Source: Polytrichum commune (lineage: Eukaryota > Streptophyta > Polytrichopsida > Polytrichales > Polytrichaceae). From it: DNA of 64,000 bases. Below the pieces are notes generated by a model. It was not told where the DNA came from. It saw only the letters and a program-made list of their open reading frames with translations, and did not search any database. The stretch spans positions 37,143,081 to 37,207,080 of the forward strand of contig OX485809.1 in NCBI GenBank assembly GCA_950295325.1. Reading direction: 5' to 3'. The first letter of the stretch is position 1. The number at the start of each line of letters is the position of its first letter. The translations under genes were made by a program, and so were the position numbers. Shown here piece by piece: positions 65-48,300 of this stretch.

Positions 65-2184
65 CTTTTAGCGACTTCAAGTTCTGTATATTCTTCACCA
101 TGCTTGGCAACTTGAATGGTCGCCAGTTTTGGTATATTTCTGCACCCCCGCACATTCTACCATGATAAATGAATTGATTGATGACATAGAAATTTCATGA
201 AAAAGGTCCTATGCGTCAAAAACATAGAAGATTGAGATTCTGTGTGTACTTGGAGGCAGGATGGGTACAGCCGGCACAAAACCAGCCTTGCGTGCACGTA
301 ATCTTGGCATACTGAAGCTGCAGTCATGCAAATCATAGTGTCAGAGATGTAAGTGAAGTTAGCGTCAGAACCTTCATTGCAGGTTACATTTCAAGGTTGC
401 ATGTGGGATATGTCACTGTGTACAAAGCGCAAGGGTGAAGAAAAGATAAATTATGCTTTGATGTTTAAAAAAGGTGGTGAGCACCTGATTGGTGAGCTGA
501 TTCTTGAACTTGTCAGGATGGTTTTCCCTTTCCGAGTGAAATGCATATGCTACTTGAGCATCCATACCTGCCATACTCGTGTGTCAAAATTTGAAGTCAA
601 TGCCAAAAAGGAGTTAGCCAACTGTTAAGAAAGAGAGTTCCAACACAAGATTGAATGCTAGTGAGTTGATACAGGAAATCACAATTGGGGAAGAAAGAAA
701 CCTCGCACAATACTCTTATGTCGCTGAGTATACTCACCTATACTGAAGTAATTCCAGAAACCGCCCCGGAAAGTGATACGTCCTTTCTACAACACGAACC
801 CATCCACCAATTTGCACATTAGTAATATTCTCAATTCGCACTTCTACTCAAACTTTGAATTTAGATCCGACACCTGTCATTTGCAACCCAACATTCCAAT
901 ACTGTAAGTTCAGGGCAACGATTGTTGATCTCCTTACCTCTTTATCCTTTTCATCCCGCTTGAAAGAGTGCAGCGAATGTGGGACTTTCACAGGCTCCAA
1001 GGAGTCGCCATGTTTCTCTTCCACCACCATCTTCATTGTGACATGCCAGCTGCAGGAAGGATATCCCAGCCCCACCCCAAGTTAATATTCGTAACCATCA
1101 TGGAGTTTGAGGTCCGTTTCCAGCAAACATCATCCTGTGAGCTTCTAGGATTACCTGTCCACACGCAAGGGGGTGGCAATCAAAACCTCCTTCATAAACT
1201 TTTGCACTGAGTTCACATCTGTGCCGGGATTCTTCTTGCCCTGCCAAGAAACCGCCAGGCATGTCAATTTCAGATGAGTTCCTGACGTGAGGGAAGCATG
1301 TCCTTTTATTTCAATATCACCGGCACTAGTGGTAGGAGTTGCAAACTCACCCAGCCGAAGGAGAAGGGGAGATTGTTTCCTGTTCCCAGTGGCATCGTTG
1401 CAATGGGTGGCGGATGCTCCAGCTTCAGATCCCCCATGATTCCAAGCAACCAGCCGGCTGTGCCATCTCCTCCTGCTACCTGCGAAATAACGCAATCCCA
1501 CTAAATAAACCTAACTGCTCAGGGGAATTAATCACCAAAAAGGGAAGGCCGCAGAAGTGCAAAGACCTAAAATCTTGAGCCACTGGGCAAAAACTTGAAT
1601 CTCGTTTTTTAGCTGAAAATATTTCAATCTGCAAAGGTAAGACTATCCTTTACACAACTGTTTCCGAAATACTCACACTCAAAAGGCGCATACGAGGCTT
1701 ACAATGATACGCAAGTGTGTCCGAACATGGATTGCAACCTTGTCTCCATCATTCTTGAGCTTCTCAAGATGCCCCAGCACTTGGTGCAGTATATCCTCCG
1801 GCTTCTCATCAGCTAGATCATACACCTGGGGAGAACCAATAATATCAGCCAAACATGAAGAAATCGAGCTTTTGAAACCCCCACCATTTCTTGATGGACT
1901 GCACTGCATTTGCGCAGCGCAACCAGTGAAAAGATTTTTCTTTGAGAAGTTGTGTGCACCTGCTTGGGGTTCAGCAGGTCACGAAATGACTTGAGAATAG
2001 CGCCACCGAGCTGGCCCCCACTCTTTGAGTTCACAAAGACAAGAATGGGAGACTCCGGCGTCGCTACGGATTCGCTGTTGTCCGATATAGATCCCCTTTC
2101 AAGAATGTAGTTAGGGATGCACATCTCCTCCATCTTCGCCCTCTTGTTGTGTTTTCTCACATCTTCCTCCTTCATGTCTGCCAT
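65..2184 (-). CDS. DGK: Diacylglycerol kinase, plant type (3' end missing off the left edge)
   Basis: Phosphorylates diacylglycerol to phosphatidic acid in plant lipid signalling. I rebuilt nine exons, each flanked by GT-AG and joining in phase: 2184-1960, 1825-1703, 1479-1351, 1240-1155, 1049-938, 786-738, 567-485, 317-250 and 139-65. They encode about 317 residues. The start is the ATG at 2184, followed by a short acidic N-terminus. Exon 1 carries the [11 protein letters not shown] motif that opens the kinase catalytic domain. Exon 3 carries the ATP-binding GGDGTAGW and the PLGTGNNL motif. Exon 4 has GKKNPGTD. Exons 6-9 begin the accessory domain ([29 protein letters not shown]). It has no N-terminal C1 domains, so it belongs with the short plant DGKs (about 480-500 aa), and roughly 170 residues lie beyond position 1. 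No stops or frameshifts are seen, so it looks functional. The last donor is at 64/65. Confidence 0.93.
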
Positions 2185-3647
2185 CTCTGTAACTCCCTTT
2201 GACGATTCGCCCAGGGGCTTGACTTAGTTGCGATGCTGTATGAACAAGAGAAATGAAATAACTTGTTACAAGCAAATCCACTGAATGCCTCCAGAAGTAG
2301 AGTTATGTAAGCTCGTCACCATGGTATTTGCAATTGTGGCATGTGCACACTATGTGCACGTTTGTTGGTTAACGGAGGTGGACTCCGCGTCATCGCCTTA
2401 ACCCATTGCCAATGTCAAGCACAACTTCGTAGACAATTCCAACCCGTAATCTACCACCCAACCTCATCTGCTTTTCACAGAGGAAGGAACCCGGCAGGCA
2501 CTCGTGCTGTGCGAATAACTGACTTGAACACGGCACATCAACAATATTACACACCAACTTGTTCATGACCACGGCGATTCAACCAACCAAAGTCGCTGCA
2601 CCAACCAAGAAACGCGCCCATCCCAAAGCAAATCACGTACCGAGTTCTGAACCCACTAACCCCTGCACACACGAAGCTCCCTGCTGGCGATACAGAAAGC
2701 ACTTCACTTGATTACAAGGCTCTGCCCGCTCATAAAAAAGCTTCTTCTTACCTTTGCAACCTAAGAACCCAGCAATTACACGATGTAATCTGCGCAAGCA
2801 AGAGTGTCTGCCCATCAAAACTGCACCAAATCTCTCAATTTTGGAAACAGGCCATGGCAATCCACCTACCTGACCACCGACCCACTTGAAGCACACAGTC
2901 TGCAGCTCCGATTGAGGGGAGATCCTTGAGCACGCTGCATCCTCGAACTAAGCGAAACACTTGACGTCTGTTTGGGAGCAGTAGTGATTGATGCTTTCGA
3001 ATGCGCCTGTCCAGGTGCCTCCGGAAGCGCTGGCAGGCTTAACTGGACCAGTTAGAAGTACACTACGACCGCCATAGTCCATACATAGACAAGGAAAACC
3101 TTCTCTAGGTAAACCCTTGGTCATGAGACATAGTGTAAAACGGTCATTAGACCAACATGTAGTCTCTAATGAAGATAAAAATTAAAAGTTGCTAAAAAAA
3201 AAAAATTCTTGAATAGAAGTCACTAAAATGGTATTTGTCTTCATAACATAGCCAACAATGCTTTATTTTGTTGAAACTTGAGACAAATTATTTGGGTTCT
3301 CTCACCACAAAATTTGAGTGACCACCAAACATTATCCATTTCTAGACGTGTAGAATTCCTTGTCCTTTCCATGTCACTTTCTCATTCCTTATCTAACAGG
3401 ATCACTTTCAATGTGATGATCTTATGTAGAATGAAGTGGGAGCGTCACTCATTTCTCAACCATTGCGAAAAAAATTCAAAATTCAAAAATAAATAAAATA
3501 AAAATAAAAATAAAGTGGTGGTTATGGTCAGTGATCTTTTGTGTAAACATGCCCTAACAAGGTCCAATCACAATGAATCATTGACCCTCAACTTATAGGC
3601 TATTTGTTAATACCATAGCCCCTTCCTCATCCATCGATATTGTTTAC
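2185..3647. other. Upstream region of the diacylglycerol kinase gene
   Basis: This should hold the 5' UTR and promoter of the kinase gene. A plausible 5'-UTR intron acceptor (minus strand, AG at 2236-2237) lies 52 bases before the ATG; its donor was not located. From about 3100 the sequence becomes AT-rich, and no convincing coding region is seen. Confidence 0.4.
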
Positions 3648-3992
3648 CAAGGTATGTGGGTGTTATTTGGTTCATTTTTCATGCTCTCCAATTTCTACTG
3701 ATAAGATTTACACAACAAAAACTTGTATTACATTAGAAAATCTACGATGAAACATCAGCAAAAAAACGGATTGAAAATTGGACTTCCCCTTATTAAATAC
3801 CGGTTATCAAAAATGCATGTTTGTTGATTTCTTAATTGGACACATAGGTCCTCCCAATTGTGCTCAATATTGAGTGTAGAGTAGTCATTAATATTTGAAG
3901 ACGCAATCCAATCTCTTTTAACATGTGTCTTTGTGGTGTTTGCTCTTTGATTCTTTAGGGGGTACACCTTCACAATACATATGAGTACACAC
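3648..3992 (+). repeat. Dispersed repeat, copy 1 (partner at 53857-54205)
   Basis: About 345 bases here align by eye with 53857-54205 in the same orientation. Shared anchors include GGTATGTGGGTGTTATT at the left, ATTGAGTGTAGAGTAG in the middle and CAATCTCTTTTAA near the right. A shorter related piece is at about 6870-6990. The copies are diverged, with indels. No terminal repeats or target duplications were found, so the class is unknown. Confidence 0.55.
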
Positions 3993-6900
3993 GAGTGCAC
4001 AAAAAGGGGTATTAATTTGAACCATTATGTACTATGTATACATATGCTACACAAATTATGACTTGAAGTTATGTATGTATATGGAGGACCTCTAGAAAAT
4101 ATACAACATTCATACGTGTATGGTAGAGTCCCTTGAGTTTATGGGATAAGTATTTAATATTAGGTGAAACTAGGAGGAATAATTTTATCATTTCCTTATC
4201 TCATCCATGTATGTATGACAGACGCAATATTAGGGTTTTGGAAAGGGTGGTTGAGCTTAGAATGAGGCCATCAGAATTCCCTCTACACTTGGGATGGGTT
4301 TGTCCTTAGTCACACTAGAATCTGGTGGGCGAGCAGCCTACATAGAAACTTGCCCTTATGTCCCCTCCCCACCTATTAACTTTAGCTAAGCCTAAAAGTT
4401 GGTTTTTAAAACCCGGCCTTCACACCATCGACATTATCTAGTGCCGAGCCTAGTTGGCATATGATGTGGCATGGTTTAAAAGTGGAGGTTTTAAGCCTCA
4501 AGCACCGACCCTCTCATCGGTACCTAGACGTACATGAGGCAAGAATGTAGGACCTTTAAAAGTGTCGCCTCCCGCCCTTGTGATTGGTTGCTTTTTAGTC
4601 TTAGCTATGAGGGCACGAGGAGCTTCATTAACAAAAACCGATGGTAAGATAGGCGAGTAGAAAGGAATTTGGGGATGGGACAAAAACTATCCAACATTCA
4701 TTGCTTGGTAGATAAAACGATGAACATGTGTGAAAGCTACCTAACTAAAACCTACTCAAAAATCTCCGAAACAAGTTCTTGTAAGTGCATTGGGATAGCC
4801 AGATGCCTTCCCTATAACCAAGAGAGCTTTACCCGGTTTTTAAGAAAGACTTTGGTTATTTGGTAAAGTCGGGTGGGGGAGAGGGCATTAGCGGTTTGCC
4901 GCCACTTAAGACCCAAGTCTACCTACCTACCTACCATGGCAGACGTCACGAAGCCCAAGCTCTCTTTCAGAGGGCCGTTCTTGTGCGTACTTTATGTGTT
5001 GAGGTAGAATCTAGTGTACCTCGAAGGTTTTTCTGGTCGGTTTTGCTTCAGATCAAGACACACAAAACATGGTCAATAAGTTATCATATAGTACACAAGT
5101 ATAGTACCCCAAGTATGTAGAATCCAACGCAGGGTGTTTCTGCTCCAGGTATGGTCTTTAAGTGACTGTTCTCCCTTTTCAGTATGACACTTTTGGGAAA
5201 CACAAAAAACAGTCGTATTATCAAGGTGTCGTCTTCTCATTAATATGACAAATGGCGTTATTATTGAGGGAATACAAAAACATGAGTAATATGAGCTTAA
5301 AAATATATACAATGAGGTTAAGCAATATAGATGGTATGAAATAATAACTTGTAACCCCAAACAAATACAAATATTCTCAAGAACTCTTGAAATAGGAGTC
5401 TGAAGATCTTTGGTGTTGCCTACCCAAGTTAGCAACTATCATCTTATCTGGATTCCTTTTTAACTTTTGAAAACTAATCATTTCATCAACACCAAAATAT
5501 AAAGAGTTCTTTAATAAGAAACTAGACATTAATGATGCATAATGTATAGCATCAAGATACTAGTGATACTATATCACCCGTGTACAAGGCGACATACTAG
5601 GCAGGAGGTCACTCGCTCTGACCCTAACCATGCCCATTCTACACTAATAACCCTAATTATCATTAAGTTCCCAATGATAAGTGAAGTTCCGAAGTAGATC
5701 TGAAGTGAAAATGGATGTATTTTAGATATACATAACATAAATAAAAGGATATTCAACATTAACTACCTCTTTAATATGACAAAACGGAGATTCAAAATGT
5801 TGCATTATCAAGTGTCATAGTCATAAAAAAAAAGTTTTGAACTAAAAAGTTTGGTCTTGCAAAAAAGTGTCGTAATATCGAGGGTGTCGTATAAACGAGG
5901 TTAGACTGTATTCTAGAGTTCCAATTTCTCAGGAGGATGAGTCAAGTCAACTTGCATTTCATTTCAATATGTCAGAAGGATTCACAAGTTGCTTGCACTT
6001 TCTCTATGAAGGCATTGGACGCCCCTGCATGTATGGCTGCTACGTGTGTAGAAAGAAAAAAGAAAACAAAAAAACAAAAACAAAAACGTCTCTAAGTACT
6101 GGCATGAATGTGAGCCCGTTGGCCCTATGCTGATCATGGTGTTTTGTGATGCAAGCTATGTGTGTAAGTTACACTCGCAACAGTCAGTTGCTAAAACCTT
6201 TCTTCCCCCCACTCTCAAAAAGGTTTCGTGCTAAGGTGGATGTGTGTACACTTTAAACATTGTCATATCAACCTCCTTAATGTCACTCCTTCTCTTATAT
6301 CTTGAAACCCTAGGGAATGGACGTTCTTAGTTTGAATCTCATTTCTTGTTGTCATGTTTTCCTCCCCATATATCATGGGTTTTGACATTGAAATAAACCA
6401 CCCAAGAATTCAAACCACACACTTGCATGCATCATGCTATCATCAATGTGAATTATTGTCATTTTTGCAACATTGACTTCGTGTCATTCCATAATGTCAC
6501 AGGTTGCATCAACCCTCTCTTATTATGCATCCATGTGAACACTACAAAACTCCTTAATACAATGTGCACTTTGATTGCAACAAAGCGTGATATTATGGAG
6601 TTTAGAGTGTATTTGGATACTATCCTCTCCACATGCACTTCTTGTAGAAAATGAAGCAAGCAATTAGTACAAGATGGTTACCAAGTCCAAATCATCCCCA
6701 TAGCCATTTGCCTCTTAAATTTCAAAGTTCATTTGAATATTTTATTCATTTATTAAAGTGAAAATTCTCGTACTCATGAAATGGTCATACATGTTTCCCC
6801 AATTGTGCATGCAATTATGTTGACCATTGAACCTAACACGGTTAGCATATCGAGAATACACACACACACAGTCTAATCTCTTTTAGACAAGTGCTTTTTT

Positions 6901-8244: not shown

Positions 8245-9218
8245 TGTCACAACCCTTGCTAGCCCCCCTTGACAATCTTGCCAATTTTCAATTCTAGCAA
8301 AGGTTACGAGCGCTAACCATTTGCATTCCGCCATGCTAATGGTTAGCTCCTCCTACCCCGGACCTTATAGTTCATAGGAGGGAACCAACCCTCCTACTTT
8401 GCTTTCGGGACTCACCCCTTAATCGGTAACTCATTTCTTGGATGTGGACTTCCATCCATGGAAGTCCAATCCTATGTTGATCATCGCGTTGCCGGAGCAA
8501 CACTACAACAACCCGAACCATACTAGGCAACTATGGCCTCACAATGGGCCAATGCCCATGGAGGCCGTGCCGTTCGGCCTCGGGTGGGTGAGGCCACACC
8601 ACCTCACCCATATAAGCCTCTAGGACTTCACGCGGGGCCCCTACCCCACCGTCAACCAACCTCTTGTCTCTCTACCAAGAGTTGGGGCCAAGTGGACATT
8701 TTCCTTTAGCTGCTGGGCCTAGAACCCCCTAGCAGCTTCAGACCATCATAACTTCCTTGTATGATGTCTGATCATAACAACCAACCACTCCATCTTCATC
8801 TACGCTTTACGTAGATGCCGATGGACTCCTCACTTGCCCCATTCGGACAAGTACTGAGGACGTTATGCCTGTTTGAACCTTGGCAGTCCCGGGAATCACT
8901 CCCAGGCACTGCTGTACCAGGGCGCTGTCCCGGGACAGCGCCCCACTCAAATGGCCATAACTCCTAGCTCACACCTCCGATTGAGGTGTTCTTGAGCTTT
9001 CTAGAATCACCACGCCATGAGCTACGCATAGCTCATGGCCTTACCCTTGTGCCTCCTAGTCTTCGTGGGTGGGAGGCGTTCCCAACGCCCGGGGCCCTCA
9101 CCCACACTAGGATCACTTGGGCCCTCTCACCAACGGCGCCACAAGTCCCGGGTGTCACTCCGGGGTCCCCCTTGTGCCCATGGTGTTTCGGGCACTCCTC
9201 ATGGAGAGGTGCGCGACA
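8245..9218 (-). repeat. 3' LTR (left copy) of the gypsy element
   Basis: 974 bp, starting TGTCACAACCC and ending GCGCGACA on the plus strand. It contains several near-perfect short palindromes: 8445-8468 (11-bp arms, 2-nt loop), 8797-8817 (8-bp arms), 8920-8943 (24-bp perfect palindrome centred on CCCGGG) and 9014-9039 (11-bp arms, 4-nt loop). Open frames inside it are incidental. Confidence 0.94.
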
Positions 9219-14338: not shown

Positions 14339-14340
14339 AG

Positions 14341-15297
14341 TGTCGCAACCCTTGCTAGCCCCCCTTGACAATCTTGCCAATTTTCAATTCTAGCAAAGGT
14401 TACGAGCGCTAACCATTTGCATTCCGCCATGCTAATGGTTAGCTCCTCCTACCCCGGACCTTATAGTTCATAGGAGGGAACCAACCCTCCTACTTTGCTT
14501 TCGGGACTCACCCCTTAATCGGTAACTCATTTCTTGGATGTGGACTTCCATCCATGGAAGTCCAATCCTATGTTGATCATCGCGTTGCCGGAGCAACACT
14601 ACAACAACCCGAACCATACTAGGCAACTATGGCCTCACAATGGGCCAATGCCCATGGAGGCCGTGCCGTTCGGCCTCGGGTGGGTGAGGCCACACCACCT
14701 CACCCATATAAGCCTCTAGGACTTCACGCGGGGCCCCTACCCCACCGTCAACCAACCTCTTGTCTCTCTACCAAGAGTTGGGGCCAAGTGGACATTTTCC
14801 TTTAGCTGCTGGGCCTAGAACCCCCTAGCAGCTTCAGACCATCATAACTTCCTTGTATGATGTCTGATCATAACAACCAACCACTCCATCTTCATCTACG
14901 CTTTACGTAGATGCCGATGGACTCCTCACTTGCCCCATTCGGACAAGTACTGAGGACGTTATGCCTGTTTGAACCTTGGCAGTCCCGGGAATCACTCCCA
15001 GGCACTGCTGTACCAGGGCGCTGTCCCGGGACAGCGCCCCACTCAAATGGCCATAACTCCTAGCTCACACCTCCGATTGAGGTGTTCTTGAGCTTTCTAG
15101 AATCACCACGCCATGAGCTACGCATAGCTCATGGCCTTACCCTTGTGCCTCCTAGTCTTCGTGGGTGGGAGGCGTTCCCAACGCCCGGGGCCCTCACCCA
15201 CACTAGGATCACTTGGGCCCTCTCACCAACGGCGCCACAAGTCCCGGGTGTCACTCCGGGGTCCCCCTTGTGCCCATGGTGTTTCGGGCACTCCTCA
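14341..15297 (-). repeat. 5' LTR (right copy), main part, interrupted by the solo LTR
   Basis: 957 bp, starting TGTCGCAACCC, essentially identical to 8245-9201. The remaining 17 bp of this LTR resume at 16279-16295, after the nested insertion and its CCTCA duplication (15293-15297 and 16274-16278). Confidence 0.94.
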
Positions 15298-16273
15298 TGT
15301 CGCGCACCTCTCCATGAGGAGTGGCCAAAACACCATGGGCACAAGGGGGACCCCGGAGTGACACCCGGGACTTGTGGCGCCGTTGGTGAGAGGGCCCAAG
15401 TGATCCTAGTGTGGGTGAGGGCCCCGGGCGTTGGGAACGCCTCCCACCCACGAAGATTAGGAGGCACAAGGGTAAGGCCATGAGTTATGCGTAGCTCATG
15501 GCGTGGTGATTCTAGAAAGCTCAAGAACACCTCAATCGGAGGTGTGAGCTAGGAGTTATGGCCATTTGAGTGGGGCGCTGTCCGGGGACAGCGCCCTGGT
15601 ACAGCAGTGCCTGGGAGTGATTCCCGGGACTGCCAAGGTTCAAACAGGCATAACTTCCTCAAGACTTGCTCAAATGGAGCAAGTGAGGAGTCCATCGGCA
15701 TCTACGTAAAGCGTAGATGAAGATGGAGTGGTTGGTTGTCATGATCAGACATCATACAAGGAAGTTATGATGGTCTGAAGCTGCTGGGGGGGGTTCTAGG
15801 CCCAGCAGCTAAAGGAAAATGTCCACTTGGCCCCAACTCTTGGTAGAGAGACAAGAGGTTGGTTGACGGTGGGGTAGGGGCCCCGCGTGAAGTCCTAGAG
15901 GCTTATATGGGTGAGGTGGTGTGGCCTCACCCACCCGAGGCCGAACGGCACGGCCTCCATGGGCATTGGCCCAATGTGAGGCCATAGTTGCCTAGTATGG
16001 TTCGGGTTGTTGTAGTGTTGCTCCGGCAATGCGATGATCAACATAGGATTGGACTTCCATGGATGGAAGTCCACATTGGGGAAATGGGTTACCAATTAAG
16101 GGGTGAGTCCCGAAAGCAAAGTAGGAGGGTTGGTTCCCTCCTATGAACTATATGGTCCGGGGTAAGAGGAGCTAACCATTAGCATGGCGGAATGCGAAGG
16201 GTTAGCGCTCGTAACCTTTGCTAGAAAATTAAAATTGGCAAGATTGTCAAGGGGGCTAGCAAGGGTTGCGACA
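15298..16273 (+). mobile_element. Nested solo LTR of the same family, inverted
   Basis: 976 bp, starting TGTCGCGCACC and ending GGTTGCGACA, flanked by CCTCA on both sides (15293-15297, 16274-16278). It is the same LTR family in opposite orientation and has no internal region, so it is a solo LTR left by LTR-LTR recombination after insertion. It differs from the host LTRs at many positions, for example TCCGGGGACAG in place of the perfect palindrome and a longer G run at about 15786-15793, so it came from a diverged family member. Confidence 0.93.
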
Positions 16274-16278
16274 CCTCA

Positions 16279-39061: not shown

Positions 39062-39220
39062 TACTAAACCCTCCGGAACCTATGCAAACCTCTGAAGACC
39101 TAACTTCGAAACAATGGTCGCCTCGCAGTGCCGAACCTCTTCACATATGAGGCACACCAGATTGGCACCCTCAGTGCAGGAAGGGAGAGCTGGGGATGCG
39201 AGAGGGGCGGTTGGCAAATT

Positions 39221-40795
39221 CCTATTGTAACCATGACCAAAACCAACACACTCCAACATGTACAAGACCATTTTAACGATTTCTCAATTTCAAATTGAAT
39301 TTAAAGAGAATAAAAATCAAAAAAATCAAAACAATATGTCACAATATCAATTGACCGTAAAAACTTCCAAAATCCAAACTTCGTTGATGTAGCAACTGTA
39401 CCAAAAATTATCATAAACTTAAGCCTCTAGGTGTGAGAGTCGTGCAAGATTTTATAATGTTGTGACTAATGTGACTAATACCTTGGCATGGTATTAGTCA
39501 CATTAGTCACATCCTTATACAATCGTCTATAATTTCATTTTATTGTATATAAATTTGCATGTGAAACATTCCTATCATAACCATGACCAAAACCAACACA
39601 CTCCAACATGTACTTGACCATTTTAACGATTTCTCAATTTTCAATTCAATTTAAAGAGAATCAAAATAAAAAAATAAAAACAATATGTCACAATATCAAT
39701 TGACCGTAAAAACTTCCAAAATCCAAACTTCGTTGATGTAGCAACTATACCAAAAATTATCATAAACTTAAGCCTCAAGGTGTGAGAGTCGTGCAAGATT
39801 TTATAATGTTGTGACTAATGTGAGTAATACCTTGGCAGGGTATTAGTCACATTAGTCACATCCTTATACAATCGTCTATAATTTCATTTTATTGTATATA
39901 ACTTTGCATGTGAAACATTCCTATCATAACCATGACCAAAACCAACACACTTCAACATGTACTACACCATTTTAACGATTTCTCAATTTCAAATTGAATT
40001 TAAAGAGAATAAAAATCAAAAAATCAAAACAATGTCACAATATCAATTGACCGTAAAAACTTCCAAAATCCAAACTTCGTTGATGTAGCAACTGTACCAA
40101 AAATTATCATAAACTTAAGCCTCAAGGTGTGAGAGTCGTGCAAGATTTTATAATGTTGTGACTAATGTGACTAATACCTTGGCAGGGTATTAGTCACATT
40201 AGTCACATCATTATTGTAATGAATTTATTTTATTTTTTATGAATTTGTATATATGATGTTTTTACTTAATCCTCTTTTACTTTGATATATTGCTTTTATA
40301 TTTAATATACATTTTTATTGGGCCTTAAAATTTGAGCCCTTTTATAGATCCTAAACCGTTTTCTTACATCCTTTCGTCGAGAAATATATTCATTTATCTT
40401 AATTGAAATATTGAGCTTTTGTGCACAATGGCATCCTCGTCAAACCATAAACCACGCAAGTATGCTTCACTAGTAGACTAGAAACTTTTGGAGGACGAAA
40501 ACCTATATGAGTTGACATTCAATGAAATTGGATTTGTCGGATGCTCAATTTCAAATTGAATTTAAAGAGAATAAAAATGAAAAAAATGAAAAAAAATATG
40601 TCACAATATCAATTGACCATAAAAACTTCCAAAATTCAAACTTCCTTGATGTAGCAACTATACCAAAAATTATCATAAACTTAAGCCTCAAGGTGTGAGA
40701 GTCGTGCAAGATTTTATAATGTTGTGGCTAATGTGACTAATACCTTGGCAGGGTATTAGTCACATTAGTCACATCATTATAGAATCATCTATAAT
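39221..40795 (+). repeat. About 350-bp tandem array with hairpins, 3 full and 1 partial unit
   Basis: Units start CCTAT(T/C)(G/A)TAACCATGACC at 39221, 39571 and 39920 (periods 350 and 349 bp). A fourth partial unit, 40545-40795, follows the inverted gene fragment at 40239-40546. Each unit carries a hairpin of 22-bp arms with a 7-nt loop: 39461-39511 (perfect), 39810-39860 (one mismatch), 40157-40207 (perfect) and 40723-40773 (one mismatch). Arms contain GTGACTAATGTGACTAAT. No coding potential. Confidence 0.92.
40239..40546 (+). repeat. Inverted-repeat arm: duplicated promoter and 5' codons of the zinc-cluster/dioxygenase gene
   Basis: This arm is the reverse complement of 43862-44165 at high identity over about 305 bp. 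It holds the upstream region and an ATG (40428) followed by MASSSNHKPRKYASLVD, then a TAG where the main copy has Gln, then KLLEDENLYELTFNEIG. The copy ends abruptly and runs into the 350-bp repeat. It could be transcribed from its own copied promoter, but only for a few codons. Confidence 0.88.
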
Positions 40796-40915: not shown

Positions 40916-42447
40916 ATATATACCCATACATCTAATCAACACCACTAAGGTTACTAGTATTTATCCTTAGTTACTAAAGTGTCTATTCCTGAAAGGGATG
41001 AGTAGTCTTCATACAATGGCCCTTTGTCATGTGGGCTCTGGCTCATTGTCGAGACAAACAAACACTCTATTCACGTTGGCCCTTTAAAAGGGGGCAGGTG
41101 TTCATATCTATCTATCTATTTGCTTGCACCCTTAGGGAGGCTAATTTTTAAACTGAATTTTCATATAAATTGTACAAATACCAAATAATAAACGAAATAC
41201 TATAGCATTGCAAAATAGACTATGAAACACATTTTATACCATCCATCTTGCAATTCAATTAGTTTCAATTACTTATACGAATCATAAATCATTCAAAGCA
41301 CCTCTCAAAACACAACCAATAGCTGAAGGAAACTAGTTAAAGGGTTTAGGGTTAAACATGGTGATAACAAAATATACAAGCTAACATAGACAAGTTGTAA
41401 ACACATATAGAACAAAACAAGTATTACAATCAATTATGACAAGGAAAAGAATTTTGCACAACTGCCTACTCCAAAAAAATAAAATTGCATTCAAATACAA
41501 GAAAGCTAAGAACAAAACCATGATTATGTTATTGATCCTACTACACACTTTTAGGGGATCCAATGTCTATAACCTTATGTATTTCTATTGATTACTAAAG
41601 TGGAGGAATTATTCGGCACCTTATTTTACATATAATTATGTAGAAACATTTTTCCAATGTTATGGTAGATCTAACAATTTTATGATTTTTACCCTCAACA
41701 AATTAAATTGAACATATTTTTTTGTCTCACATGGTTTCTAAAATTCCAATAGTGACCCCCTGAGCCTCTTTGAAGGGTAAGTAGGTCTTTATTTTTAAAA
41801 TTTTAACATGTTTATATATACTACTTCTTATTCAATTACTAAGTTTACCTTCAAGCATAATCTTTGAGAGTATGTTTAAAAGATTCTAAATTTTGTGGTT
41901 CATGAATTAATGTATGCATGTGAATAAAGCACTTCAAGATTGATATTTTGATTGGGTATTAGTGGTTTGATTGTTCTATGCTTATATTCACATGTCATAT
42001 ATGACATAATGTGATTGATATTCATAGAATTTTTTTTTGGAATTTAAAAAAAAGAAGTTATTTGTAGAACCTGTGCAAAGTGAATTTGACACCTCCAAAA
42101 ACCGGCTCATTTTCCAAGAACTTGTCCGCCGAAATTTTTTTTTTAACATGTCCGTAGACATGTTAGGGACCTTTATAAAAAATCACAATTAGTTGGGAGT
42201 CTTGTAGGCATATTCTTCCAAAGCCGTGGCTATAGGCCTTTCAACATGGGCTTGCTCCGTTGTAGGGCAGCATGGCGCATAAAAAATGGTGTGGTGATAC
42301 AATATATACCCAAAAAAAACATTATATACAACAAATGCCAAAATAATATTTATTATATATAAAAATATTTTAAATACAAAAAATGGTAAAAAAACGCTCC
42401 AACTAATTCTAAAAAACTATAAATTCTACTACTAGAATTAGCAAAAT
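40916..42447. other. AT-rich intergenic sequence
   Basis: No gene recognised. Contains a CTAT tetranucleotide tract near 41105-41122 and a GGTTTAGGGTTAA telomere-like motif near 41342. Confidence 0.4.
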
Positions 42448-43981
42448 CTATTCATTATGACTATCTTGTGGATCTATGGAATACCAATGTTTTTTTATTG
42501 GAATTCTAGCAGGTTTCTTAGTCTGAGCTGTCAATTGATGCTCCTCCACCCTAGTTTTCAACCCTTTTTGTTCGTAAGAGCAAGTCCTAATGTATAATTC
42601 TCTATTGCATTGTCTCTTAGGTCAAAATGTAATGTCCCATGCACATATTTTTCGCTTTTTACAAACAAACCATGTCCATTGTTTGTTTGAAACTTGTAAA
42701 GATATTGATGCACGGCAAATTGACCTTTTGAAGGAGCTCCTGCTGTAAACCATGTAATAATGGATGATTCCATATCCAACGAATCAACATGTGGCTTAAT
42801 AAATGAATTCTTGCTGAAATGCAATTGAGATATATTTGTCGGACTCTCATCTAGGCCAACATATATGTGATTCGTGGTTGATGCTTGTAGCTGAAAGTGA
42901 TGGTCAATTTTCTCACCAAATGTGGACATTGCACTTCTCCCTATGTTGCTTGCAATCTCGTCGCCAATGTCCTTGAATGCCTTCTCTTTATGAACTAAAA
43001 CTTTGGATGAATAATACGGAATAACATTGTCACTAGTAATGCCTGCATTTGAAGTGTAACTATGATTAATATTTTTGTAAAATCCACGGTGTGGATTTTG
43101 GGCTTTCTATTTGCTTCTATTTCCATAAATAGGAGCCCCTTCATAATAAACATTGGCCAATCTCAATGTGGATCTATATGTGTCTTCCTCCAACATCTTT
43201 GGAATGTATATCAAAGTCTTGGTATTAGAAGTTATTTTCACACCATCAAAGATGACGAGAGGTGAAGATATGGTAGGCACCAAATGTTCATCTTGGAAAA
43301 CATCCTCTCACTTGTAATCATCATTGTTGTATTCTTCCATATCCCAATATGGTTTTTTTTTGTGTTGGAGACAATCTTATGTTGATTCGATATATTAGAA
43401 TAAGCAATATGCATTGTTATTCCCGTTGGCAATTTCAAAGCTTCAACAGTAGACTTGTATAATGCAGATGTATGTCTCACCTCACATTGAACAATCAACC
43501 CCAACAACAACTTATTTTTCTTGTTGTCAATAAATTTCTTGCAATCTTCAACAATTGCCTCATAATCTGAAAGAGTTTGAATTATGAAACCTCGACAGTT
43601 CCATAAATTCAACATAGGCTTACAATGCAATGTGTAATCTACGTCCCAAAGATTCGGACATAGTTTACATGTTTTCCCCTCCTCTTTGAACTTTTCAAGA
43701 CAATTATCACATACTTTATGACAATGATGAATAATTGTACCTTTTGAGAGATCTGCATTTTCACCGTTGAACAATTATATGAAAATGTCATTTTTCAATG
43801 TGTGTTCACAAGGAATAATATACATTGTTGAATGACGTTGTCGTTTCCGATGTGCAAAATATGAGCATCTGACAGATCCAATTTCATTGAATGTCAGCTC
43901 ATATAGGTTTTCGTCCTCCAAAAGTTTCTGATCTACTAGTGAAGCATACTTGCGTGGTTTATGGTTTGACGAGGATGTCAT
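42448..43981 (-). pseudogene. Decayed gene: Cys/His zinc cluster plus 2OG-Fe(II) dioxygenase-like C-terminus
   Basis: The ATG at 43981 opens a frame that runs to TAG at 42448 through at least three stops (TAA 43775-43777, TGA near 43302, TAG near 43118) and two frameshifts in A runs (near 43360 and 42570). About 510 codons are recognisable. Near codon 55 CEH begins a zinc-binding-like region continuing as C-x3-C-x2-C-x10-C-x2-C (about 43725-43650), RING- or zinc-ribbon-like. The C-terminal 150 codons contain KPHVDSLD (H-x-D, 42791-42783), then a second His 50 residues downstream in YVHGT (42641-42639). That spacing fits the iron-binding H-x-D...H triad of 2-oxoglutarate dioxygenases. Upstream lies the last exon of another same-strand ORF. 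The exact subfamily is not identified. Confidence 0.65.
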
Positions 43982-44165
43982 GTGCACAAAAGCTCAATAA
44001 TACAATTAAGATAAATGAATATATTTCTTGACGAAAGGATGTAAGAAAACGGTTTAGGATCTATAAAAGGACTCAAATTTTAAGGTCCAATAAAAATGTA
44101 TATTAAATATAAAAGCAATATATTAAAGTAAAAGAGCATAAAGTAAAAACATCATATATACAAAT
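43862..44165 (-). repeat. Inverted-repeat arm, main copy (promoter and start of the dioxygenase-like gene)
   Basis: Reverse complement of 40239-40546. It covers exactly the interval from the stop codon of the upstream exon (44167) through the start codon at 43981 and about 40 codons. The two arms enclose about 3.3 kb. Differences include the Gln codon here versus a stop in the other arm. Confidence 0.88.
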
Positions 44166-44166
44166 G

Positions 44167-44355
44167 TTAAGTATAACGTAACTCATAGTTATTTAATTTA
44201 ATATTGATGTTGGAAGTTGACATCTTGTTCAATTTATCCATAAAAGATTGCATGCTCATCGAATCTACATTATTAAGTAAAAGTTCCGAAAAATGCTCCA
44301 CTGAAAAATTTGATAGTAATTGGGCATACTCACGGGCTTGAGGAACATCATTTTC
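44167..44355 (-). pseudogene. Terminal exon of an unknown same-strand gene
   Basis: After a TGTAG acceptor (44356-44360) a 62-codon open frame runs to TAA at 44167, with QAREYAQLLSNFSVEHFSE and a Ser/Asn-rich end. There are no internal stops. It lies only 185 bp before the start codon of the zinc-cluster/dioxygenase gene. No upstream exon was located in 44361-45300, so it may be a stranded fragment. Family unknown. Confidence 0.45.
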
Positions 44356-45300: not shown

Positions 45301-48300
45301 TTAGTTGAAGCAGGCAGGGGGCTTGACATCGCCTGAAGCTGAGCCGTGAGCATTCGTACACTCTGACTCGGCATCCTCACCCGATGTGCTCTCGAGATCA
45401 ATACCACTCATGCTGATCCCCGAGCATGGCTGGTTCTCACTGCAGTCAAATTTTACTGCAGTCGAAGTAGCTGAAGTGCCTCGGATATTGATGTATGTGA
45501 TGTTCTGCACTTGGAGTCCATCCCGCTGCCACACAACATCAACAAAATTAGACAGTCATTGCTCACACGGTTGTTGTTTCATGAGCAACACTGACAGACA
45601 TGAGCACACCTCTCTGGAATGCATTTCAGGTTTCAGGTTTAGAGAAAGAGGGTGATATATAGGACAAGGTTTCCTAGGTTTATACTAGTAGGTGTTCATG
45701 ATGCATAGAAGTGGGACTTTCCGGTCCAAAGGGACAGCTCATGTCATAATAGTTGCAGTTTATTTATTTTTTTGTTATTATGGATAGTATTCGTTTATAA
45801 GTCTTCTTTTCTTTATGAATTTTGTCGCAAAGAGCTTTTAAAAGGTGTTTCTAATTAGTGTCTTATTTCACATGATTGACAACCATGTTGAGTGCGGACA
45901 ATGGATGATCAAGGAACATTTCAAAGGAAGTTTAGGATTGTAGAATGTAATAACAAGGGTTTTCATAAATACTATTGAATAAGAGTATGCAGGATTGCTA
46001 TACCTTGTTTTGCATTAAGTTTACATTTCATAACCTTATCCTAACAACTCTTTTTTTATGAGCCTTTCATAATAATTTTATCACAACCTTAATTTGCAAT
46101 ACCGCAACTTCTTATGCCTGAATTACCCACAATGATGAAACCTACTCTTCAAGACATAGACTAGCAATCTGCTCATGCTATCCAAGGATTTGTAACTTAA
46201 TTTGTATCATATCATACAAGCACTACGACCATATGAGACCCAAGCTACTTGTCTTGCGTCAGTGAGTTTTCTCGCAAATTTGTTCCAAGAGTAGAATATA
46301 AAAAAATTCAATGATGTAAGATGATTTTCACTGATGCAAGACAAGTTGCCTAGTAGGACTCATCTGCTTGTAGTGAAGGATGGTGATGCTAGATTCTTAG
46401 TTTAATTTCATTGCGATATACCAATGCCACCTATAAGATCAACAATCTCTAGAATGGAATGTCAAAGTGTACTAGAATGGAGTTGCTTACAGATCCAGAA
46501 CACTTTCCTTCCGACTTCGGGCAGTATTTCTGATCAATGATGATGGGGTTCGACACGTCTTTCATTTGAATGTTAGAGAATGCAGAATTGCTCACGATTC
46601 CCTTGCCACCCTGTTGATGCACCTCACATTTCCCATCAATAATAATGTTGAGCAAATAAGATTAAGTAGACATCATGGTTTATCAAATGAATTTGCGTGC
46701 GCGTTGAGCTAGACCATTGGATCCGAGTCCACTCTCTTGAAGGATCTTTGGTGGGTTCTATGAAGATAAACAGAAACATCAGCTTCCTGAGGAAGCAAGC
46801 ATGAAGAGCCTCTTCGCCAGCGAACTACTGCAATATGTTAGTGGTGGATGGTTCTCCAAACAAGTGTAAAGGTCGTGTACCTGCCATGTCTTGATTCGCA
46901 CACCGTTTGTGGTGCCTTCAAATGTACATCCTGTCACTTCAACATCAGACACTTCCTCGTGGGCTCCATTCCTCCCCAAACTCCCCACACTGCACAACAT
47001 CAGAAACAACCCAGACTTTTAGTTCGTAAAGTAACTCGCCAGTGAAGTTGGAGCCCATAAACAGTAACAGTCGGCTACCACCATGTCACATTAGTCCGAC
47101 TATAAGAACAGAATCATTCAAACATTTTGAAATGAATGTGGTATGTTCGTCCCTAAATACCGGCTCCACCGAGCAGCGAATGTGCGGGTTGTGTTTCACT
47201 AGATGATTCCATTTTGAGTTATGCTGCAGATCGTTTTGGTTTGGAGCTGACATGATGATTACCTTATGCCATGACATCCTGGTCCGCAATACACATTATT
47301 GATCTTGATACCATGACAATCTTTTGAAATTGACACACAATCATCTCCTGCCAAACAAACATGCAATCCAGCTCACTTATCCAACAATATATATATATAT
47401 ATATATGTTGATATCAAATATGCTCAAACCAGGTGCCGTACTGGGTACTTTGTTCCACCAGCAAGTCTTGTATTGAAAATTAAATCGTTTTCGACGCAAT
47501 TTGAGCTGATGAACGCATACCAGTGGTGATGTGTGAGTTTCGCACTATCATCCCCGTGGACGCCGTGATGTGAATTCCATCCGTATTGGGGCTATCAGCT
47601 GGGGCTGTAATTGTTACAGAATCAACAATACCATTCGTACACTCCGTAAGCTTGAGGTGAACTTGCTGGCTATCAACAAAGTTGATATTCGAGAGGATGC
47701 AAGATGCACAACGATTCACAATCACAGCCTGCACAGCACACGATTCGTATATAACAGAATTGTTCCTTACATGAAACCATATCTGGAAGCGAATCCAAGG
47801 ATAATTATGCAGACACAATTATGTAGTCCAGATTGTGACTGGACCATCTTCTTTAGAATGTGTAAATTGACATTTTCTTGTTCTGTGACTCTTGATATAA
47901 GTTTGAATCCCTCTCCATCCATCCATTTATATAATCATCATGGTTTGAAGGTGACATGATGAGGTAATTAGTTGTGTTTGAAGCCAAAAATATATAATAA
48001 ACAATAAACAAAATAAAATTGTTGGTTGAAGCATGCAACTTGATTTTTTTTACCAAGTTTTCAATTGTGAGTCCACAAAGAGGAAGTTATTGCGGTCATT
48101 AGTGGAGCGAGTCCAAAGCACCAGGAGAGAGTGGCCAATAAATATGGGGGGTTAAGTTGTTTGGCCTTGAAAAAGATTAGTAATTACTCACTGTCGGAGC
48201 TCGTTCACACTTGTTGTCTTCCCGACAAGCCCAAAACTCCTGGCCTCGCCCATTGAATTGCCCACCGCCTTGCAAACGAAGGTTTTCGAGGTCCTCAAAT

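Follow-up and report, generated by a model that had tools for sequence, protein, structure and literature searches.

A stretch of 64,000 nucleotides from the moss Polytrichum commune (the window) carries, on its minus strand, the remains of a gene whose product would have joined an N-terminal Cys/His cluster to a C-terminal H-x-D...H signature. What was this gene, and how did it come to lie there? A sequence-only reading took it to be a zinc-cluster gene with a 2OG-Fe(II) dioxygenase-like domain, now in decay, and suggested that it might be what is left of a plant element or gene family not yet described. The decay is confirmed. The gene is intronless and spans about 510 codons, from a start codon at 43981-43979 to a final sense codon that ends near 42451; it consists of five collinear segments disrupted by three in-frame stops and two frameshifts. 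The segments and motifs, together with the larger unit that contains them, are as follows:

41678..44205, minus strand: unit common to the window and the L025 copy on contig C5, covering the gene with its upstream and 3' flanks (92.9% identity over 2.56 kb by blastn)
43778..43981, minus strand: segment 1, start codon and N-terminus (blastp, 81% to L027 residues 1-68)
43358..43774, minus strand: segment 2, remainder of the zinc cluster and middle region (blastp, 87% to L027 residues 70-208)
43110..43307, minus strand: segment 3, flanked by in-frame stops upstream and downstream (blastp, 78% to L027 residues 224-296)
42564..43106, minus strand: segment 4, 2OG-Fe(II) dioxygenase-like core (blastp, 84% to L027 residues 298-478; comparison with a PKHD hydroxylase profile)
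42451..42570, minus strand: segment 5, C-terminal tail in a different frame (blastp, 83% to L027 residues 477-515)
about 43658..43867 (counted by hand), minus strand: Cys/His cluster
42783..42791, minus strand: H-x-D motif (HVD)
42639..42641, minus strand: distal His of the motif, 50 residues from H-x-D in the window copy

The two longest open frames of the gene, 182 and 178 codons within 1.57 kb, are beyond chance, since dinucleotide shuffles almost never match them: in 2000 such shuffles the longest frame reached at least 182 codons once, and the second-longest never reached 178. The decay is likewise real, because closely related copies elsewhere in the genome have no interruption at the points where the window copy is broken. 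Today the window copy is a dead gene. The surrounding DNA is that of a plant, with Glyco_hydro_28 exons and retroelement fragments (RNase H and Pol_BBD) around the gene. A viral or prokaryotic origin was considered and rejected: scans of viral contigs with this protein, its family and other 2OG seeds, scans of genome contigs, and tblastn against phages brought up nothing related to the window protein.

The relatives were found by searching the host genome (407.8 Mb in 64 contigs, almost all of it in seven contigs of 42-78 Mb) with the C-terminal 264 residues of the window protein. This search gave 43 match rows, which were merged by hand into about 28 related places including the window, a number that is a lower bound. 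Twenty of these places were fetched with their flanks and sorted together with the window, by sequence comparison, into three subfamilies:

subfamily 1 (12 loci): window, L024, L025, L026, L027, L028, L029, L030, L035, L036, L039, L043
subfamily 2 (4 loci): L032, L034, L040, L041
subfamily 3 (5 loci): L031, L033, L037, L038, L042

Intact homologues, which the sequence-only reading had proposed to seek in this genome, do exist: L034 (519 codons) and L027 (515 codons) are open from end to end. The first His of H-x-D is gone in L027, and one of the open copies retains the full motif. Selection was assessed in 19 NG86 pairwise comparisons. The dN/dS ratio lies between 0.21 and 0.25 for L024/L025, L027/L024, L027/L025 and the C-terminal parts of L024/window, and between 0.37 and 0.74 in 12 pairs. 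L034/L037 gives 0.23, but at a dS of 1.8, which is near saturation; L034/L040 gives 1.8, resting on 8 differences; and L034/L024 yields no value. As judged from these ratios, the family was probably under protein-level constraint during part of its history. A distant relative, L046 (950-2353, minus strand; C2:5376652-5378052), is a single open frame of 467 codons that retains the zinc cluster and a GGEF...YYHAT motif and is without H-x-D. When L046 is compared with the genome, its sole close match is itself, and the next stands at 25% identity.

The N-terminal cluster of the window protein has the pattern C-x4-H ... P-C ... C-H-x2-C-x2-C-x10-C-x2-C, the latter half of which is RING-like. The C-x4-H pair (or one of near spacing), the P-C and the C-H-x2-C-x2-C...C-x2-C are retained across the subfamilies in alignment A3 with single losses, for example in L034. 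The cluster is not a RING finger proper, as its first half has C-x4-H...C in place of the C-x2-C of the C3H2C3/C3HC4 pattern. The zf-RING_2 profile stays below its cut-off, with E=0.036 for the window protein and a range of 0.036 to 0.88 over the frames searched. The value of 0.036 is not significant, because Pfam matches of similar size in neighbouring open reading frames (Utp21, malate synthase, DUF6268 and T_Ag) were judged to be chance.

Whether the C-terminal domain is a 2OG-Fe(II) dioxygenase depends first on its conserved residues. In alignment A3, which excludes L046, H-x-D is retained in 14 of the 16 rows that span the motif, the exceptions being L025 and L027 with Y-V-D, and the distal His is retained in all 14 rows that span its position. 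The iron-triad pattern H-x-[DE]...H is therefore present within the family rows of this alignment. Several Lys/Arg residues follow the distal His, none of them assignable as the one that would bind 2-oxoglutarate. Loss of the motif among relatives had been named beforehand as a finding that would count against the dioxygenase assignment; the motif is not lost as such in the family rows, but it is missing from the distant L046.

Profile searches are less decisive. Residues 120-185 of L037 match PF13640 (E=0.033, 15.6 bits, cut-off 27), and residues 413-451 of L046 match positions 171-211 of the 211 in PF20515 (E=0.076, 13.4 bits, cut-off 27). Both matches cover the motif-bearing stretch, as judged by coordinates alone. 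By themselves, E values of 0.03-0.08 prove little, because other Pfam matches of similar size (E=0.013-0.019) are clearly chance; weak matches to DHQ_synthase, ATP-cone, Pneumo_NS1, several DUFs, PA2201_N and BOFC_N were dropped as such. Among the core-bearing frames a 2OG Pfam match appears in one of six in one search and in none of three in another. With the window protein and family frames, no 2OG-Fe(II) profile of Pfam reaches its curated cut-off and no Tet_JBP match appears at E<=10; the TET/JBP and AlkB profiles were compared through Pfam only. The window protein has no oxygenase match in sequence searches of Pfam, PHROGs, NCBIfam or PDB, and the PDB sequence searches returned nothing or a single chance-level chain (E=0.083).

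A further comparison used hhalign and a PKHD profile made of YbiX and nine phage 2OG proteins. The C-terminal part of the window protein alone aligns with H-x-D in register and, as a single sequence, scores 20.16, which is reached by 5 of 400 shuffles of the window sequence and by none of 76 other window frames of at least 100 codons. When H-V-D and the distal H are kept in place, shuffled sequences attain this score in 13 of 500 cases. For the family alignment, 2 of 500 column shuffles come up to the real score, and for a 13-row family alignment 2 of 1000 do. A low-stringency profile alignment sets the H-x-D, GG and distal His of the family on their YbiX counterparts; hhalign probabilities are below 5% in all PKHD comparisons. 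The AlphaFold2 models are too poor to use, with a mean pLDDT of 30.0 for one sequence and of 33.9 for 36 rows (residues 107-519 below 50). The closest known enzymes are those of 2OG-FeII_Oxy_3 (PF13640, with its sub-threshold match in L037) and the PKHD-type hydroxylases such as YbiX and PiuC. In the low-stringency alignment the H-x-D, GG and distal H coincide with those of YbiX, but YbiX has no zinc cluster in its 225 residues and is about 12% identical to the family. PF20515 (2OG-FeII_Oxy_6), named the "Tet-like 2OG-Fe(II) oxygenase superfamily", is matched, below threshold, by L046 alone, which is without H-x-D. The dioxygenase assignment is supported, but not proven, by the conserved H-x-D/GG/H, the weak 2OG Pfam matches and the profile comparison; no Pfam cut-off is reached. 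Judged from sequence, an oxygenase nature of the family protein is likely, and we hold a dioxygenase of 2OG type to be quite probable.

The mobility of the family is clearest in subfamily 3. All five fetched loci of this subfamily are bounded elements with 8-bp target duplications, four of them exact and one with a single mismatch. The elements, and a related MITE, are:

L031, 3468-5730: nested insertion of 2263 bp, with GATTAACA on either side
L033, 4259-6265: duplication GATTTTTC
L037, 3277-6032, reverse strand: duplication GCTGAGCA/GTTGAGCA
L038, about 9.4 kb: duplication GTGAAAAC
L042, about 8.3 kb: duplication GGGTCCAC
L032, 3153-3937: MITE of 785 bp with similar ends (CTCGGGGGGTGCA) and an exact 8-bp duplication (TATTTGTC)

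The inverted ends are of the type CTCGGG..ACACTT, with ATCGGG on the left in L042. With inverted ends and target duplications of fixed length, subfamily 3 has the hallmarks of a DNA transposon. An automated end scan recovered L031, L038 and the MITE and gave no match in 120 shuffled loci; it was too strict for the variable G run, and the ends of L033, L037 and L042 were identified by visual inspection. The count of five out of five refers to the fetched loci; the 401-bp left end has 41 match rows in the genome, and further left ends exist among these rows. In the L031, L033 and L037 elements (2.0-2.8 kb) the dioxygenase-like gene is the sole recognised gene, with no other frame of at least 200 codons and no transposase-like piece inside.

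The two long elements hold more. A 324-codon frame in the L042 element, used as a query, gave 124 genome rows, nine of which fall within frames of 1493-1549 codons and are matched with no intervening stop. One of the loci, L051, contains an intact gene for a protein of about 1,500 aa (608-5098, minus strand), open over 1497 codons. No Pfam profile matches the L051 protein above cut-off, and its PDB matches are all at chance level; a Thioredoxin_4 match of the ~1,500-aa protein was dropped as chance. Remnants of this protein lie on the minus strand in both long elements, covering residues 9-60, 885-1265 and 1264-1491 in L042 and residues 14-102 and 1258-1491 in L038, and in both they have the left end on one side and the dioxygenase-like gene on the other. 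The ancestral order was therefore probably end, transposase (minus strand), dioxygenase-like gene (plus strand), end. L037 has a transposase-like piece too, but this one begins at the boundary of the element and lies outside it, and the dioxygenase-like gene is absent from the 6.3 kb fetched around the intact L051. The place, size and copy number of the ~1,500-aa protein suggest that it is a transposase.

The 515-residue protein might instead be the transposase itself, or its DNA-binding partner, in which case H-x-D...H would be no oxygenase motif. An N-terminal zinc cluster is usual in transposases, and the three short elements hold no other recognised gene. However, the GG and distal H align with the PKHD hydroxylase, weak 2OG Pfam matches exist, and both long elements hold a separate transposase-like gene; we regard this alternative as quite improbable. 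What the sequence-only reading offered as a possibility is borne out: this is a real multicopy plant gene family, with some copies open and one branch housed in a DNA transposon that has a linked transposase-like gene.

A second kind of transposase occurs near some copies. A Plant_tran transposase adjoins the dioxygenase-like gene in L031 (E=9.9e-76), and another is present in L025. PIF/Harbinger elements carry their own transposase within the element and make a 3-bp target duplication. In L031 the 8-bp duplication bounds the 2263-bp insertion alone; the dioxygenase-like element is nested, and Harbinger is therefore ruled out as its carrier there. A different relation is seen in 17 match rows that cover the N-terminal part of the gene only. 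All 17 have a left-end match nearby, which starts at left-end base 51 or 52, and L047 and L048, fetched from these rows, contain a frame that begins in the same way as the L031 accessory protein. As read in L047 and L048, these 17 rows seem to be a Harbinger-like repeat with a captured 5' fragment of the dioxygenase-like gene.

Such capture bears on the possibility that the gene is a 2OG-like oxygenase of host origin, merely taken up by transposons as passenger cargo without benefit to them. The apparent uptake by the Harbinger-like repeat would fit, as would the lack of detected element ends at subfamilies 1 and 2 and the solitary state of L046, as would be expected of a host gene. Yet the family is dispersed, intronless and multicopy, both long elements hold the dioxygenase-like gene together with transposase-like remnants, and L046 itself is without H-x-D. 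On balance, passenger cargo seems to us an unlikely account, though one with some claim to attention.

The explanation that we prefer, and to which we give an even chance, is that the window carries a dead member of an intronless family encoding a protein of about 515 residues with a RING-like cluster and a 2OG-like domain, that one branch is transposon-borne, and that the protein serves the transposon as an accessory anti-silencing oxygenase. In this scheme at least one branch of the family travels in the transposon with CTCGGG..ACACTT inverted ends and 8-bp target duplications, where the dioxygenase-like gene and the gene for the ~1,500-aa transposase-like protein stand on opposite strands. 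The ~1,500-aa protein or a relative would probably mobilise the element, and deleted copies would have moved in trans. The dioxygenase-like protein would most likely be an accessory factor that loosens silencing by oxidising either a chromatin protein or a methylated base. The 2OG fold, the enzymatic activity, the substrate and the anti-silencing role are what we infer for this protein, and the last may, by analogy, be modelled on the role proposed for TET/JBP transposons of fungi.

In Kojima 2025 (PMC12730594), TET/JBP dioxygenase genes are described in several DNA transposon lineages of fungi, with escape from methylation-based silencing as their proposed role; one type is so divergent that its HHpred E-values against known TET structures are 1.4 and 19. 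As there, the present case has a 2OG-type dioxygenase-like gene inside a DNA transposon. The published cases come from three fungal lineages, whereas the present host is a plant; the protein described here also bears a RING-like zinc cluster, and its transposase-like partner matches no Pfam profile above cut-off. Within the limited collection of literature searched, transposons with a TET/JBP or other 2OG-type gene are recorded for fungi and none for plants, and passages of PMC12344493 and PMC12477816 offer nothing nearer. The presence of the gene in the element could mean that the transposon brings along an enzyme with which it eases the silencing imposed on it. The boldest form of the preferred explanation, in which a plant DNA transposon moved by a Pfam-less ~1,500-aa protein encodes a zinc-cluster TET-like oxygenase that erases its own silencing marks on DNA or chromatin, is speculative and, in our estimation, improbable; such an element would be the plant equivalent of the TET/JBP transposons of fungi, and oxidised 5-methylcytosine in plants might stem from it. 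The open copies make two questions testable: do element-borne oxygenases counter silencing in plants, and from what source might oxidised methylcytosine arise there?

For the window's own branch, subfamily 1, the surroundings of the gene are of another kind. The window has the following repeats downstream of the gene:

39218..40250, no strand assigned: about three tandem units of about 349 bp with an internal palindrome
40544..40795, no strand assigned: additional partial unit of about 349 bp, 94-95% to the other units
40243..40551, plus strand: inverted, truncated copy of the 5' end of the gene (5' region with codons 1-40), 94.8% to 44165-43857

The inverted copy sits within the tandem array, with an overlap of about 8 bp at its junctions. 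The ~349-bp unit lies on either side of the gene, inverted, in 5 of the 12 subfamily-1 loci (L024, L025, L026, L027 and L039) and on one side only in the window, L028, L029, L035 and L036 (the last three weak); it was not seen at L030 and L043, all within about 4-5 kb of flanking sequence. Like the window with its copy at 40243-40551, L039 has an inverted pair made up of the array and the 5' part of the gene. The scan found no element ends or target duplications at the window and the other subfamily-1 loci, an absence that is weak evidence because the same scan missed three of the five subfamily-3 pairs; none were found at the subfamily-2 gene copies either. Thus, of the copy number and terminal repeats that the sequence-only reading pointed to, the family is multicopy and subfamily 3 is bounded, but no ends were found for the subfamily of the window.

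Foldback elements, such as Drosophila FB and Arabidopsis FARE, consist of inverted repeats of tandem arrays around a core. Part of subfamily 1 likewise has inverted tandem arrays around a core, and in this respect its layout resembles a foldback element. It is also conceivable that subfamily 1 is immobile and has been spread by rearrangement of the 349-bp arrays, a mechanism unrelated to the subfamily-3 transposon. The outer array ends fall at differing unit phases, no 8-bp duplications were found, and the join at 40243-40551 in the window is microhomology-like, all of which would agree with rearrangement. On the other hand, the inverted arrays on both sides of the gene in five of the loci have the foldback-like form, and the copies are spread over several contigs. 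We consider immobility somewhat doubtful and favour the view that subfamily 1 would once have moved as subfamily 3 did.

Several further features lie near these loci. L024 has another inverted pair, of 146 bp, outside the arrays. An Ulp1-like protease frame (Peptidase_C48, E=0.00028) is present at 921-1694 on the plus strand of L026, in sequence that is common to L024 and also outside the arrays. In the window, the exons of a polygalacturonase-type gene (Glyco_hydro_28) lie at 45304-45555 and 47486-47818 on the minus strand, about 1.3 kb upstream of the broken gene. Finally, positions 14340-16274 of the window form a 1.9-kb inverted repeat (a palindrome with 96% identity), the sequence of which occurs again at 8245-9218.
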